This document shows positions 6,467 through 32,037 of a stretch of 32,037 nucleotides of DNA, piece after piece (positions within the stretch are counted from its first letter, which is position 1; each line of letters begins with the position of its first letter). The notes beneath the pieces were generated by a model, which was given only the letters and a program-made list of their open reading frames with translations, was not told the origin of the DNA and did not search any database. Position numbers and translations under genes: made by a program. The stretch is from Algicola sp. GTDB taxonomy: Bacteria; Pseudomonadota; Gammaproteobacteria; Enterobacterales; Alteromonadaceae. Location: assembly GCA_013216025.1 (NCBI GenBank), contig JABSOG010000016.1:1-32037 (forward strand). The letters run 5' to 3'.

Positions 6467-7462
6467 TTACTCTTTTTGAATAGTCCAAATTTCCGCCAGT
6501 CCACTGGAGCTTTCTGTCAGCAATTGAGTATCGTTTTTAATAAAAGCCACGCTGTGCACCACGGCACCTTTGGGGCGGGATTGTTCTCTTGGGGCGACCG
6601 TCCAATCTTGTAATTTTTTGCCTGTTTTGACATCCCACAGCGTCAGTTTGCGTGATGGCGCGCCGGTGGCCAGTAAAGTGCCATCGTTGTTAAAGCGTAC
6701 AGCACTGAATACATTTTGACGGGCGGTATATTTGAGGCGACTGACAGGTTTACCGTTACTCAAATCCCACACCTGAGCCTGTTTTTGGCTGTCGGCGGTA
6801 AAAGCGTAGCGTCTTGTTGGGTCAAGTGCGACTTTGGTGACTCTGCTCGGATGGTTGAAACGGTGTACCACTTGACCGCTCTGTGTATCCCACAAATAAG
6901 CGACATAATCGTTTGACCCCGACAGGGCGTAGCGGCCATTGTCAGACATCGCCACGCTGTTTACTTTTTCTTGATGTCCCATAAACTCAATCCGGCGACC
7001 TGTTGCTGTGGTGATATGTACCACCACGCCGTTACTTTTGCCAATCAAGATATGTTGTCCATCGTTAGACACGGCGACATCACGGATATTGGATTCTCTG
7101 ACTTTGACAAATGCCACAGACTTGCCTGTGGCGATGTCCCATAGGGCAAAATTGTCTCGGTCGGCGGTCAGGGCGTGACTGTTGTTCGCTGAAATTGCAC
7201 TGACCAGAACCAAATTATTAGCGCTGCCTTGATGACTCCATTGGTATTTTAAACCATTGGTTTTTAAGTCCCACAGGCTTAAGCCGTGATGAATGCTCGA
7301 TACAACGGCGTAACTGCCGTCGCGTGAAAGGGTGGCGGAGTATGAACTGTCAACGGCATGTTCAAAACTCGCTACTGCGTTGTCCTTTTCACTGCTGCAA
7401 CCACTTAAAAACAAGGGCAGCAACAGCCCGTATTGCAACAAAAGAGTAACTAATGGTTTCAT
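6467..7462 (-). CDS. Lipoprotein with seven-bladed WD40 propeller
   Basis: A 331-residue protein. The N-terminus has a short charged start, a Leu-rich core and the lipobox LSGC (Cys about 22), so it should be lipidated and carried to the envelope. Seven WD-type blade ends follow, such as LWDLKTN, LWDIATG, LWDTQSG, VWDLSNG, LWDVKTG and a final EIWTIQ, which fits one closed propeller filling the whole mature protein. No catalytic motif is visible, so a protein-binding scaffold role is likely. Residue 2 after the Cys is Ser, consistent with outer-membrane sorting under the +2 rule. It sits between slyX and fkpA and diverges from fkpA. A periplasmic folding or envelope-assembly role is only a contextual guess. 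Confidence 0.85.
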   Translation of the reverse strand: MKPLVTLLLQYGLLLPLFLSGCSSEKDNAVASFEHAVDSSYSATLSRDGSYAVVSSIHHGLSLWDLKTNGLKYQWSHQGSANNLVLVSAISANNSHALTADRDNFALWDIATGKSVAFVKVRESNIRDVAVSNDGQHILIGKSNGVVVHITTATGRRIEFMGHQEKVNSVAMSDNGRYALSGSNDYVAYLWDTQSGQVVHRFNHPSRVTKVALDPTRRYAFTADSQKQAQVWDLSNGKPVSRLKYTARQNVFSAVRFNNDGTLLATGAPSRKLTLWDVKTGKKLQDWTVAPREQSRPKGAVVHSVAFIKNDTQLLTESSSGLAEIWTIQKE

Positions 7463-27312: not shown

Positions 27313-27642
27313 ATTTACGACCTCATTCATCACCGCGCCACCTCCCACAAATAACCCGCTACATGACTCAATTTATCAGTCTTGAGAACTTAGCTCATCG
27401 GTTAATTTCAATCTGTGAAAGTGAACTGTCTGAAAACCTCTGTCTGCAATATCACTTAGTGCCGATTTTTAGTTCTCGCTCCTTGCAACTGGCATACGTC
27501 CTTGCATTAGTCTGTCCACCTGATACGTAATTCCCACATAGGTTACTCTAGTGTTATTTAAAAGTTAAAAACCTCGAAGTCGTTTACATTTCAATCTATG
27601 ATAGTGATTAAAACAATAACAACGTCACTAGGAATACAGCCG
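27313..27642 (+). other. Intergenic region before the NarL-type regulator
   Basis: About 330 bases without a supported gene between the post-lpd repeat and the regulator start. A -10-like TATGAT at about 27596 lacks a good -35. The open frame from 27598 is an upstream extension of the regulator without domain support. Confidence 0.35.
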
Positions 27643-28269
27643 ATGAGTAAAACCCGCATATTAATTGCCGATGATCACCAAATCTTTCGTCAGGGCTTAC
27701 GTGCTTTACTCGACAGTTGTGATCAGTGTGAAATTATCGATGAGGTCGATAACGGTGACGCGGCTTGGGCTGCTATCATCCGGCAACAACCAGATATCGC
27801 CATTTTAGACATCACCATGGATAAAACTAGCGGGTTGGATGTCGCTTTAAAAGTGCAGACGCACCAACTCAACACCCGAATCATCTTCCTTTCCATGCAC
27901 AACGAGATAAAAATCATTGACCGGGCCATGTCGGCAGGTGCCTGTGCCTATCTGCTTAAAGATGAGGCTTTTGACGACTTGTGTAAGGCGGTTGATTTGG
28001 CACGCAAGGGTAAATCTTACCTGTCTGAAGAGATCTCAATACAGCTGGCAGAATATCAGACCTTTCGAACAGCTGCCCAACTGACAAAACGCGAAAAGGA
28101 AACGGTTTCACACATTGCCAGAGGGCATACCAATAAAGAGATCGCAGCAATACTGTCACTGTCGGTTAAAACCATTGATAACCACCGCACCAACCTGATG
28201 AAAAAACTCAATTTACACAACACCGCTGAGTTGGTTCGTTATGCCTTACTTGAAGGATTGGGCGTTTAA
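27643..28269 (+). CDS. NarL/FixJ-type response regulator
   Basis: A 208-residue cytosolic regulator. The receiver domain (1-118) begins RILIADDHQIFRQGLRALL with acidic Asp10/Asp11, phospho-Asp56 in AILDITMD, Ser84 in the FLSMH strand and Lys106 in YLLKDEA. The C-terminal LuxR-type helix-turn-helix (about 142-205) has LTKREKETVSHIARGHTNKEIA and SVKTIDNHRTNLMKKL. I use ATG 27643, with AGGA nine bases upstream; the frame opens at 27598 but the extra 15 residues lie outside the receiver fold. Its stop abuts the ATG of the propeller kinase, so the two form a cognate pair. Target genes are unknown. Confidence 0.93.
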   Translation: MSKTRILIADDHQIFRQGLRALLDSCDQCEIIDEVDNGDAAWAAIIRQQPDIAILDITMDKTSGLDVALKVQTHQLNTRIIFLSMHNEIKIIDRAMSAGACAYLLKDEAFDDLCKAVDLARKGKSYLSEEISIQLAEYQTFRTAAQLTKREKETVSHIARGHTNKEIAAILSLSVKTIDNHRTNLMKKLNLHNTAELVRYALLEGLGV

Positions 28270-31200
28270 ATGAAGTGGCCCAGCATTGTGCTGCTTCCTT
28301 TACTATTAATGATATTGATACTGTGCTCAGGGCCTGTCGGGGCTGACGGCTTATATAGCAAAACCGAACGTTTTGGCAAAGCGGTTTTTCAGTTTGAAAA
28401 TATCCGCGACGAAAAAGGGTCTAATAGCCTATTTGTGCTAAAGGTTTTACAGGACCGCCAAGGTTACATTTGGGCGGCGACCCAGACAGGCTTATATCGT
28501 TATGATGGTTATGATTTTAAGGTGTTTATTCATGATCCGGCGGTTCCAGGCTCTTTGGCGAGTAATTATATTCAAACGCTTTATCAAGACAGTAAAGGTG
28601 TGCTTTGGGTGGGGATTTTACAAGGTGGACTTGCACAATATCATCCAGACACAGAATCCTTTACCCACTTTCAACATCAAGCTGATAACCCTGAGAGTTT
28701 AAGCAATAACACTGTCACTGCTATTGCTGAAGGTCGAAACGGTGATCTGTGGATAGCCACCCTTGGTGGTGGACTCAATCGATTTAACCCAAAAAACAAT
28801 ACATTCAGCCATTTCCGTCATGACCCGCGCAACCCCGAAACCTTAAGCGACGACAAAGTTTATACAGTACTGCAAGACTCTGGGGGCATCATATGGGCGG
28901 GCACTCGCAACGGTGGCCTGAATCGGCTGGATACTCATACCGGAAAATTTAAACGCTATCAACACAGCCCCGGTGAGCGCCATAATAAAGATGGGACTGG
29001 CAGTATCAGCCACAATAAAGTGTATACACTGTTTGAAGATACCCGTGGTACCTTATGGGTCGGCACCCGAGGCGGTGGTTTAAACCGTTTTGACCGCCAG
29101 ACCGGGTCTTTTGTACATTTTAGGCATGACCCCGACAATCCTTACAGTATAGGTAGCGACAGAATTTGGTCGATACTTGAAGACAAAGCCGGTTCGCTTT
29201 GGGTGGGCACCAGAGGTGGTGGACTGAACCGTTTAGATCAGGCCAATAATCGCTTTTATCGCTATCAACATGATCCTCAAGATAACAAAAGCCTGCCTAA
29301 CAACCATATTTATTCGATAACTCAAGACTTTGCCGGTGAGATCTGGCTCGGCATCTTTGGTGGTGCCCTCAGCAAGTTTGACCCGGCCAATGAGCGCTTT
29401 GGTTTGGTCAAACATGATTCTGCTGACCCCAATAGTATAAGCAAAGGGAACGTAAAAGCGATTCTTAAAGACAGCAACGGGATACTTTGGGTTGGCACAG
29501 CAACAGGTCTCAATGGTTTTGACAAAGCAAAAAATAAGTTTAGGCATTACCAACATGAGCCAAAAAACCCGGCAAGCCTCAGCGATAATGATGTGCGGGT
29601 AATATTTGAAGATTCAGCTGGGGCCTTGTGGGTTGGCACCGCTGCAGGCGGTCTTAACCAATTCAACCCAAAAGACAATACGTTTGTTCGATACAGGCAC
29701 GCTGCTGATGATACTCATAGTTTAAGTGATGACCATGTCGGGGTTATTCATGAAGACAAGCGGGGTAATCTTTGGATAGGTACGCATTATGGCCTTAATC
29801 GATTTAACCCACAATTCAACCACTTTACCCGTTTTTTCCATCGGGTGGATTCAGCCACCAGCATCAGTCATAATTGGGTCAATGCACTATACACCGCCCT
29901 AGATGGCACCCTGTGGGTCGGCACCAATGGTGGCGGGCTCAATAAATTTAATCATCAAAAACAAACGTTTACCCGTTACCTGACCATCAAAGACAATGCC
30001 AATAGTTTAAGCCACAATACGGTTTATTCAATTACGCAGGATTTAAAAGGCACCTTATGGATTGGTACCGATGGTGGACTGAATCGATTCGACGCCAAAA
30101 ACAACACCTTTAACCATTATCGTATAAAAGACGGACTAATCAGCGACAGAGTGTCTGGCGTATTAAGTGATAAAAATGGCAATCTTTGGCTAGGTTTGAA
30201 TGATGGCCTGTCTTTTTTTGACCCAACGTCAGTCACCATTAAAAACCATATTGGCTACAGTGCTGGCTGCTCTGGGATAACTCAAGGTGCTTATTTTCAG
30301 GCATCAGACGGGCAGTTGTTTTTTGGCGGAGGTGCTGGTTATTGCGCTTTTTATCCTGACAATGCGATGGTAAAAAGTCAGCCCCCCAAACTGGTCTTCA
30401 GCGACTTTCGTTTGCTCAATAAACCGGTGCCAATAGTCACTGCGGCCAATCCGCTGTCGCCCTTAACCCGGGTGATCAATCATACCCAACGGGTGACTTT
30501 AAGCCACAGCCAAAATATACTGTCTTTTGAATTCGTCGCCTTGCATTATGCAGACCCTGAGCGTAATCAGTACAAATACAAGCTGGAGGGTTTTAACCAG
30601 GACTGGATTGACACCAGCAGCAAAAACCGCCGGGCAACCTATACCAACTTACCCGCAGGGGATTACACTTTTCGAGTCAAATCCAGTAACTTTGATAACG
30701 TCTGGAATGAGCAAGACCGCACAATTGAGCTCACCATTAAACCAGCCCCTTGGCACACCTGGTGGGCTTACAGCTTGTATTTCCTGGTAGTACTGGGGAT
30801 ATTCGGGTCATTTGGCCATCAGCAGATCATCAAGCTGCAAGCGATTAAAAAACGTGGCGAACTGGCTGCAATGCTGTTGGTCACTCAAGACCAAGAACGC
30901 AAAGTATTGTCCCGCGACTTGCATGACGGTATTGGTCCTTTGCTGATGGCGATAAAAATGCGGCTGCAGCTGTTCAATCAGCAATTTTTGTCGACCGACA
31001 GCAAGTCATCCAACCAGCTGGCTGAAATACTGACAATCGTACAAAAAACCGTTGATGACACCCGCTCACTGGCCAAAGGCATGAGACCCGTTTATTACGA
31101 TAACGGCAATATTGATGATTTGATTGGCTGGTATACCGACGAATTTGAACAATCGACCGGCATGAAAGTGATTGTAACCAAACACACCAATATCGTCTTA

Positions 31201-31518
31201 GAGACAACCATCAAAGACAATCTTTTTCGTATTTATCAAGAAGCCCTTAACAACGCATACAAACATGCCAATGCCGATACCATCAATGTCACTCTCAGTC
31301 TTGATGACCAAGGATTGACGCTTTGTGTGGCAGATAACGGTTGTGGTTTGGGGTTAGATTTACGTGCGAAAAACGCCAATAAGGGCATTGGTTTATTTAC
31401 CATTGAAGAACGAACCGCACTCATTAAAGGCACCATGGCATTGACACACGCCACCCCGCACGGCCTGATATTGAGTATAAAAGTCCCGTCGATACGCCAT
31501 GACAGTGTGAATAGCTGA
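28270..31518 (+). CDS. Two-component propeller sensor histidine kinase (HisKA_3 type)
   Basis: A 1082-residue sensor. A signal peptide (about 1-25, hydrophobic, ending GADG) leads to a large periplasmic part with 14 Reg_prop blades. The blades are marked by repeated LWVGT-GGGLNRF-type motifs from about residue 60 to 700, which fits two seven-bladed propellers. A Y_Y_Y domain (about 755-822, YKLEGFNQDWIDTSSKNRRA) and one membrane helix (about 833-853) follow. The cytoplasmic HisKA_3 domain has phosphoacceptor His885 in LSRDLHDGIGPLL, then the ATPase N box EALNNAYKHANA, ADNGCGLG and KGIGLFTIEERT. This is the NarX/DegS-like kinase class, matching the NarL-type partner directly upstream. Such sensors often detect oligosaccharides or other extracellular ligands, but the ligand here is unknown. 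Confidence 0.95.
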   Translation: MKWPSIVLLPLLLMILILCSGPVGADGLYSKTERFGKAVFQFENIRDEKGSNSLFVLKVLQDRQGYIWAATQTGLYRYDGYDFKVFIHDPAVPGSLASNYIQTLYQDSKGVLWVGILQGGLAQYHPDTESFTHFQHQADNPESLSNNTVTAIAEGRNGDLWIATLGGGLNRFNPKNNTFSHFRHDPRNPETLSDDKVYTVLQDSGGIIWAGTRNGGLNRLDTHTGKFKRYQHSPGERHNKDGTGSISHNKVYTLFEDTRGTLWVGTRGGGLNRFDRQTGSFVHFRHDPDNPYSIGSDRIWSILEDKAGSLWVGTRGGGLNRLDQANNRFYRYQHDPQDNKSLPNNHIYSITQDFAGEIWLGIFGGALSKFDPANERFGLVKHDSADPNSISKGNVKAILKDSNGILWVGTATGLNGFDKAKNKFRHYQHEPKNPASLSDNDVRVIFEDSAGALWVGTAAGGLNQFNPKDNTFVRYRHAADDTHSLSDDHVGVIHEDKRGNLWIGTHYGLNRFNPQFNHFTRFFHRVDSATSISHNWVNALYTALDGTLWVGTNGGGLNKFNHQKQTFTRYLTIKDNANSLSHNTVYSITQDLKGTLWIGTDGGLNRFDAKNNTFNHYRIKDGLISDRVSGVLSDKNGNLWLGLNDGLSFFDPTSVTIKNHIGYSAGCSGITQGAYFQASDGQLFFGGGAGYCAFYPDNAMVKSQPPKLVFSDFRLLNKPVPIVTAANPLSPLTRVINHTQRVTLSHSQNILSFEFVALHYADPERNQYKYKLEGFNQDWIDTSSKNRRATYTNLPAGDYTFRVKSSNFDNVWNEQDRTIELTIKPAPWHTWWAYSLYFLVVLGIFGSFGHQQIIKLQAIKKRGELAAMLLVTQDQERKVLSRDLHDGIGPLLMAIKMRLQLFNQQFLSTDSKSSNQLAEILTIVQKTVDDTRSLAKGMRPVYYDNGNIDDLIGWYTDEFEQSTGMKVIVTKHTNIVLETTIKDNLFRIYQEALNNAYKHANADTINVTLSLDDQGLTLCVADNGCGLGLDLRAKNANKGIGLFTIEERTALIKGTMALTHATPHGLILSIKVPSIRHDSVNS

Positions 31519-31557
31519 CAGCCTATCAGCGATAATAATCGTAAATAAAGTATAAAT

Positions 31558-31598
31558 TAGGGTATTTACCCTATGGTTAACTTGCGCTTTTTTCGCAA
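31558..31598. promoter_or_regulatory. Two small dyads upstream of the exported-protein gene
   Basis: TAGGGTA-TT-TACCCTA (31558-31573) is a perfect 7-bp inverted repeat, and TTGCG...CGCAA (31582-31598) a 5-bp one. Both lie between the kinase stop and the next gene, about 140-180 bases before its start. The first looks like a possible operator for a dimeric regulator; a role for the adjacent NarL-type protein is speculative. Confidence 0.35.
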
Positions 31599-31736
31599 AA
31601 ATAGCCATGAACTTTAACGAGTTCTTTACATTGGAATACGGTAATTAGGCGTTAATAACAACAATTGAGAGCAAAGCCGTTCATGTATATCGGCTAATAA
31701 CAATAATTTTTAATAATATAATAAAAGGTAATAACA

Positions 31737-32037
31737 ATGATAAAATTCCGCAGACTATTTATTGCGACAGCAACGAGTGCCTTATTGGTCTCTGTTGCGG
31801 CGCAGGCTGCAGACTCAAGTGGGCAGAACGCAAGTGTCAACGAAAGCAGTATGAGCGCGCCTGTATTCACTAAGTTGCCGGGTAAAGCCAGCTTTATTCA
31901 TGGTGATAACCTGATCGATGGGCCTGTCATGTTTACCAATAAAGCCGCTTCAGCAACACCATTAACCCTCGAAGAGCGTGCTGAAGCTTTAAAAACCGTG
32001 ATGGTAACCCGTGAAGGTGATCAATATGAATCGGTGA
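31737..32037 (+). CDS. Exported protein of unknown function, 3'-truncated by the window
   Basis: One hundred codons are visible, open to the window end. The start MIKFRRLFIATATSALLVSV is a classical Sec signal peptide, with a likely cleavage after AQA (residue 24) before ADSSG. AAAGG lies about nine bases before ATG 31737. The mature start is Ser/Asn-rich, followed by PVFTKLPGKASFIHGDNLID and LTLEERAEALKTVMV. I do not recognise the family; such a polar N-terminus could precede a propeptide or a large secreted enzyme. Its position downstream of the kinase/regulator pair makes it a candidate target, by context only. Confidence 0.75.
   Translation, partial: MIKFRRLFIATATSALLVSVAAQAADSSGQNASVNESSMSAPVFTKLPGKASFIHGDNLIDGPVMFTNKAASATPLTLEERAEALKTVMVTREGDQYESV

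Follow-up and report, generated by a model that had tools for sequence, protein, structure and literature searches.

Two-component systems that resemble the locus described here fall into several groups. In the NarX/NarQ-NarL systems, a kinase with HisKA_3 and HATPase_c domains is paired with a separate NarL/LuxR-type regulator, and the NarL dimer binds inverted heptamers separated by two bases (7-2-7), with sites at -49 to -40 at napF and -47 to -38 at yeaR in the accessible part of the source (PMC4549865). The hybrid kinases of Bacteroides (4a2l, 3v9f and 3ott) carry a propeller and Y_Y_Y sensor with 14 blade motifs, and unite kinase, receiver and AraC-type domains in one protein. In CrbS/CrbR, an SLC5/STAC sensor is coupled to the LuxR-family regulator CrbR, and an inverted repeat found by promoter comparison was tested in reporters, as the available portion of the source describes (PMC5715377). 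The locus analyzed here lies at the end of contig JABSOG010000016.1 of Algicola sp., whose 32,037 bases are together called the window, and consists of a NarL-type response regulator gene, a propeller-bearing sensor kinase gene, a 7-2-7 palindrome and the truncated gene of an exported protein.

The locus shares with NarX/NarQ-NarL the kinase and regulator types and the 7-2-7 inverted-repeat geometry, as given in the available text (PMC4549865), but it has a propeller sensor instead of the nitrate sensor domain and nearly always a single site, beside the regulator. Its kinase matches the Bacteroides hybrids in sensor type, blade number and sequence but has no receiver or AraC-type domain, and its output would pass through the separate NarL-type regulator. 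CrbS/CrbR, in the part of the source that is accessible, differs in its sensor, in its different imperfect repeat and in its several acetate-use targets, compared with one adjacent exported gene here (PMC5715377). The closest operon encountered, locus L081 of genome G019, has a kinase core 51% identical and a regulator 62% identical to those of the window and a palindrome with two symmetric changes before an exported gene; in that operon, by contrast, a propeller-less kinase follows a solute-binding-protein gene, and the exported gene encodes a lectin-bearing protein. The component parts, namely the NarL-type regulator, the HisKA_3 kinase and the Bacteroides-type propeller, are already known. 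What appears from sequence comparison to be new is the assignment of the operator, its tie to the regulator's neighborhood and the exchange of sensor and cargo around it. A literature search, with most subscription papers outside its scope, found no report of the operator or the circuit.

Organization of the locus

The locus is probably a two-component circuit dedicated to one neighboring exported gene, in which the regulator would bind the palindrome as its operator and activate that gene. The palindrome is read as the regulator's probable DNA switch because, in other bacteria, it is found again next to homologues of the regulator. The window is an entire contig of a fragmented assembly (9.18 Mb, 1,387 contigs, 87.2% complete), in which a pdhR-aceE-aceF-lpd cluster is followed by the regulator, the propeller kinase, the palindrome and the exported open reading frame (ORF). 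The features are as follows.

27643..28269, plus strand: NarL-type response regulator, 208 residues (Pfam; alignment of 15 homologues)
28270..31518, plus strand: sensor histidine kinase, 1082 residues (Pfam, blade motifs, PDB sequence matches)
28372..30384, plus strand: kinase propeller, about residues 35-705, 14 blade motifs, limits approximate (Pfam, motifs, PDB matches)
30547..30741, plus strand: Y_Y_Y domain, residues 760-824 (Pfam)
30895..31092, plus strand: HisKA_3 dimerization/phosphoacceptor domain, residues 876-941, with His 885 in the LHDG motif
31216..31488, plus strand: HATPase_c domain, residues 983-1073 (Pfam)
31558..31573, no strand assigned: predicted regulator operator TAGGGTA-TT-TACCCTA, a 7-2-7 inverted repeat (recurs at regulator homologues)
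31597..31602, plus strand: weak -10-like hexamer AAAAAT, tentative, 24 bases past the operator (offset shared by 8 of 17 contexts)
31737..32036, plus strand: exported-protein gene, first 100 codons, truncated by the contig end

An earlier note on this DNA had described a regulator stop abutting the kinase ATG, a gap of about 220 bases before a secreted-protein gene and a 7-bp inverted repeat at 31558-31573. These are borne out by the TAA at 28267-28269 followed by the ATG at 28270, by the 218 bases between the kinase stop and the exported ATG, and by the sequence TAGGGTA-TT-TACCCTA. The two inverted heptamers with a two-base spacer have the 7-2-7 geometry of NarL sites. At up to three mismatches the window holds four matches to the palindrome (0.38 expected), and the sole exact match is the one at 31558-31573.

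The regulator has Response_reg and GerE domains, both above the Pfam cut-off, and is thus of the NarL/FixJ (LuxR) type. Its mechanically called ORF opens at 27598, and an AGGA-type ribosome site, recognized by eye, precedes the ATG at 27643. Asp 10, Asp 11, Asp 56 and Lys 106 are invariant among 15 aligned homologues; these we take to be the phosphoacceptor Asp and active-site residues.

Recurrence of the palindrome beside regulator homologues

Regulator matches at E<=1e-40 were found in 4 of 147 family genomes (up to 21 candidates scored per genome): the genome of the window itself, G019 (62% identity), G021 (44%) and G025 (37%). In the genus of G019, referred to as the sister genus, 13 of 60 genomes carry a homologue at this threshold, giving 14 matches that are 41-62% identical to the window regulator (up to 52 candidates scored per genome). 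All 14 loci, L081 of G019 and L120-L132, were analyzed; the regulators of the 11 loci L120-L130 are 47-51% identical to that of the window. One genome, G212, has two separate regulator-operator-dockerin loci (L129 and L130), suggesting that the unit was duplicated.

The homologue loci were scanned in an unguided manner for intergenic 7-2-7 palindromes up to 9 kb from the regulator, allowing no more than one arm mismatch and requiring three or more G or C bases per arm. Many palindromes were returned, and TAGGGTA-N2-TACCCTA or a near form of it recurs in 12 of the 14 loci. Direct comparison adds L130 (two mismatches) and L127 (three mismatches), each with its site just past the regulator gene. 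In 13 of the 14 loci an exported gene is therefore preceded by a site with two or fewer mismatches, and the remaining locus has a three-mismatch site; with the window included, the 15 loci comprise seven exact sites, five with one mismatch, two with two and one with three. The L127 copy is within chance by our estimate for 20 kb, and its position alone argues for it. The two mismatches of the L081 site, TAGGGGATTTCCCCTA, are symmetric. A scan of L081 at three mismatches gave 6 matches against 4.75 expected.

The 15 related sites are on average 83% identical to the window site over 16 bases, counting the variable spacer, and the 60-base flanks, aligned on the site and oriented toward the exported gene, are 28% identical upstream and 31% downstream. 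The placement of the site differs. In L120-L130 it immediately follows the regulator, and in L131 and L132 it is about 4 kb away; in L081 divergent genes flank it, and in the window it follows the kinase. Locus L121 holds two operator copies (L121:9830 and L121:12140), each ahead of its own gene, which suggests a duplication. In G019, the gap between the regulator and the gene that follows it contains a separate inverted repeat, perfect over 14 bp with a loop of 8 bases and possibly a terminator (L081:10801-10836).

Genome-wide occurrence was then counted in 62 genomes (that of the window, its congener G001 and 60 of the sister genus), with the reversed pattern as a control. The exact site occurs seven times, in seven genomes (that of the window, G192, G205, G208, G210, G211 and G227). 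All seven belong to the 14 homologue-bearing genomes and lie from about 20 bases to 4 kb from the regulator homologue, and the exact site is absent from the 48 genomes with no homologue at E 1e-40. When up to one mismatch is allowed, 14 sites are found in the homologue-bearing genomes (control, 8), of which 13 adjoin the regulator and one, in G192, does not. The other 48 genomes have 21 sites in 17 genomes versus a control of 34. One-mismatch sites away from the regulator are therefore treated as background, and the result is carried by the exact sites and by location. No site within one mismatch was found in G019 or G182. A 12-letter form searched in five genomes at up to one mismatch gave the following sites relative to the reversed control: 3/6 in the genome of the window, 6/7 in G019, 1/7 in G021, 5/9 in G025 and 4/2 in G001; the sole exact site in these five genomes was that of the window.

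More distant regulators were also searched. The regulators of G021 and G025 have no site with three or fewer mismatches within about 6 kb. A class-wide profile search of 369 genomes (up to eight candidates scored in each) returned five outside regulators with E values of roughly 7.1e-59 to 1.5e-56 (best 5.4e-59), which were set aside because no site below four mismatches was present in the 2.2-3.6 kb around each. Searching plasmids with the regulator gave general relatives alone, below 60% identity. Among viral contigs, 87 stretches contain the exact site, and the 80 searched (680 kb) gave no regulator match.

Taken as a whole, the sequence comparison establishes the anatomy of the locus and shows that the association of an exported gene with the palindrome and with regulators of this subfamily is conserved. 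The earlier note had proposed the locus as a candidate sensing circuit, perhaps for a polysaccharide or surface cue. The circuit idea, though not the guess at its cue, is strengthened by a palindrome that is conserved, accompanies the regulator subfamily and stands ahead of exported genes.

Proposed circuit and alternative explanations

In the proposed circuit, the kinase propeller would detect an external or periplasmic cue, and the signal would run via the Y_Y_Y domain and the membrane segment to the HisKA_3/HATPase core. The core would autophosphorylate at His 885 and pass the phosphate to Asp 56 of the adjacent regulator. A dimer of the phosphorylated regulator would then bind TAGGGTA-N2-TACCCTA at 31558-31573, around -43 from the predicted start site, and switch on the exported gene at 31737. 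Phosphotransfer, DNA binding and activation are steps that we infer. A -10-like hexamer lies exactly 24 bases past the site in 8 of 17 operator contexts, placing the site near -43; this fixed offset favors activation, although modestly.

Several observations weigh against this circuit. The signal from the -10-like hexamer is modest, as 1.4% of shuffles reach the best bin with relatedness uncorrected, and the hexamer of the window is weak. The promoter scan found no plus-strand promoter in the 218-base gap, and the palindrome scores as a minus-strand terminator-like site, of which 5 were found against 4.8 expected. At up to one mismatch, the number of sites per genome is no higher than that of the reversed-pattern control. 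The homologue loci are partly close relatives, so the independent lineages, judged by eye with no tree, may number five or six. The congener G001 lacks the site and, at E 1e-40, the regulator as well. Finally, an engineered narG site, TACCCCTAAAGGGGTA, has the form TACCCCT-N2-AGGGGTA, and the arms in the window are TAGGGTA-N2-TACCCTA (PMC4549865, accessible part). The claimed likeness to NarL is therefore limited to the geometry of the site. Reading the arms as NarL's own site was rejected because their sequence and orientation are not those of the site given in the accessible text (PMC4549865).

The same regulator and operator could instead repress the exported gene, which we regard as unlikely. 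NarL represses frdA via a 7-2-7 site, according to the available part of the source (PMC4549865), and the start-site position in the window is itself a prediction; the constant spacing between the site and the -10-like hexamer downstream of it, seen in 8 of 17 contexts, nevertheless fits the position of an activator.

An improbable alternative is that the palindrome is the site of a different DNA-binding protein co-inherited with these loci. Binding by the window regulator is a prediction from sequence, and the G021 and G025 regulators (44% and 37% identical) have no such site nearby, both of which leave room for another binder. Against it, no other DNA-binding gene was common to the window and the homologue loci when the ORF lists were compared by eye, with no systematic search, and the exact sites track the regulator through differing gene neighborhoods.

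It is scarcely credible that the palindrome forms an RNA hairpin or terminator ending the regulator or kinase transcript. Its position just past the regulator or kinase gene in most loci would suit such a role, as would its score as a minus-strand terminator-like site and the symmetric change in L081, which would also preserve a hairpin. No run of T follows the palindrome on the plus strand of the window, however. The site of L131 and L132, which lies about 50-70 bases before an exported gene and 4 kb away from the regulator, also speaks against a terminator, as does the L081 site between divergent genes. The idea that the pair is an ordinary two-component system, the neighboring exported gene unrelated to it and the palindrome there by chance, can draw on the many other propeller kinases of the genome and on the fact that two-component pairs often control distant genes, but it is highly improbable given that 7 of 7 exact sites in 62 genomes fall within 4 kb of a regulator homologue and 13 of 14 homologue loci have a site at two or fewer mismatches.

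The propeller kinase

The kinase contains Reg_prop repeats and Y_Y_Y, HisKA_3 and HATPase_c domains by Pfam, begins with a signal-peptide-like segment and has a membrane segment after the Y_Y_Y domain (both read by eye). The LHDG motif at residue 884, followed by HATPase_c, makes it a HisKA_3 (NarX-type) kinase. The 14 blade motifs begin at residues 67, 112, 160, 208, 262, 310, 358, 406, 453, 501, 548, 596, 639 and 683, with a spacing of mostly about 48 residues. In sequence, the propeller region matches three solved sensors of the Bacteroides type, 4a2l (E 3.1e-96), 3v9f and 3ott. The 14-blade propeller claimed earlier is thereby supported. The blade count is based on sequence motifs and PDB sequence matches, as an alignment-free AlphaFold2 model was unusable (mean predicted local distance difference test score 31.1). 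The contrast drawn earlier with the Bacteroides hybrid kinases holds in anatomy, as Pfam detects no receiver or AraC-type domain in the kinase and a NarL-type regulator adjoins it.

The window kinase looks chimeric, with a propeller of the type found in hybrids of its own genome and a core of the sister-genus type. Over 781 residues, its propeller shares 60% identity with that of a hybrid kinase of 1717 residues encoded in the same genome (L087). The core, by contrast, has 51% identity to the kinase of L081, where Pfam detects no propeller. At E<=1e-40, G019 is the sole other genome with a kinase-core match among the 147 family genomes.

The genome has at least 77 propeller-bearing ORFs or pieces, counted on contigs chosen among the matches listed, and the window kinase alone among the 77 on the fetched contigs matches the HisKA_3 core. 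A second such case could be hidden, because 34 of the other 76 are cut at the 3' end and 22 of these show no kinase motif. In ten other propeller tails, Pfam detects HATPase_c in 10 of 10, HisKA_3 in 0 of 10 and HisKA with a receiver in 6 of 10; four of these six also have an AraC-type domain, in one protein as in the Bacteroides hybrids. Another 30 propeller loci, some of whose stretches are cut short, gave no core match; 28 of them come from other family genomes, one from the same genome and one from Bacteroidetes. A scan of genome contigs led to one distant Bacteroidetes locus.

Other sensor and propeller genes were observed in the same genome. Hybrids of the Bacteroides type are present outside the locus. 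On contig C559, a cut propeller ORF lies beside a regulator-like ORF of 276 residues with 31% identity (L195), possibly a second propeller kinase with an unlinked regulator. The window itself encodes, at 10-2613, a further hybrid kinase with SBP_bac_3, HisKA, HATPase_c and receiver domains that starts at or before the contig edge and, at 6467-7462 on the minus strand, a 331-residue WD40-repeat propeller protein.

Exported genes behind the site

Genes are called exported from N-termini read by eye; that of the window ORF resembles a signal peptide. Because the contig ends after 100 visible residues, no family can be named for the exported protein of the window, and these residues have no Pfam or NCBIfam family match. 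A search of 59 genomes with the fragment found only its own genome, which has two further weak matches (E 0.1 and 0.8), and G019. Of 395 family genomes, nine gave a match in addition to its own genome (E values per genome of 2.6e-4 to 0.0067), and two matches came from plasmids (E 0.6 and 3). Prolyl oligopeptidase was considered as an identity: by our own reading, at least four of the nine family matches start as such proteins and share the motif AP..K.P....HG with the fragment but diverge after it, and the exported protein was left unassigned.

The genes behind the site in the homologue loci are of several kinds. In L120-L130, a dockerin-bearing protein of 692-738 residues is encoded behind the site in 9 of 11 loci, with Dockerin_1 above the cut-off in all nine. 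In the 6 of the 11 loci whose cohesin-like genes were scanned, five of these genes are above the Cohesin cut-off and that of L128 is narrowly below it; the gene nearest to the site is the cohesin-like one in L127 and L128. Dockerin-bearing genes adjoin cohesin-like genes in this group, behind the predicted operator. In L131 and L132 the gene encodes a 458- or 465-residue protein that is weakly pore-forming-toxin-like (HBL above the cut-off in L132 only, APT below it in both), and in L081 it encodes an 831-residue protein with ricin-type lectin repeats.

Possible exchange of sensor and cargo

The kinases beside the regulator differ as well. In L081 and L131 a solute-binding-protein gene and a propeller-less HisKA_3 kinase accompany the regulator, and L132 looks alike; in L120-L130 no kinase-core match is found among five ORFs on either side of the regulator. 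Together with the chimeric window kinase, these differences suggest that the sensor appears to have been replaced and the regulator and operator kept.

An extension of this view, which we consider evenly balanced between right and wrong, is that the regulator and palindrome form a conserved adapter, usually with one operator per genome, whose input and output have both been swapped in evolution. The swap in the window would be the fusion of a locally expanded propeller onto the regulator's kinase core. The adapter inputs would comprise a solute-binding protein with a kinase (L081, L131 and L132), the 14-blade propeller kinase (window) and no adjacent kinase (L120-L130), and the outputs would be a dockerin-cohesin pair, a lectin-bearing protein, a weakly pore-former-like protein or the exported protein of the window.

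To our knowledge, few propeller sensors have a known target promoter. Because a target gene and a 16-bp predicted operator can here be named from sequence, an otherwise anonymous propeller kinase becomes testable, and a fusion of the operator to a reporter, together with the propeller kinase, could serve in a search for its ligand. The locus may also serve as an example in which the replacement of sensor and cargo can be read while the regulator and its DNA site stay fixed.

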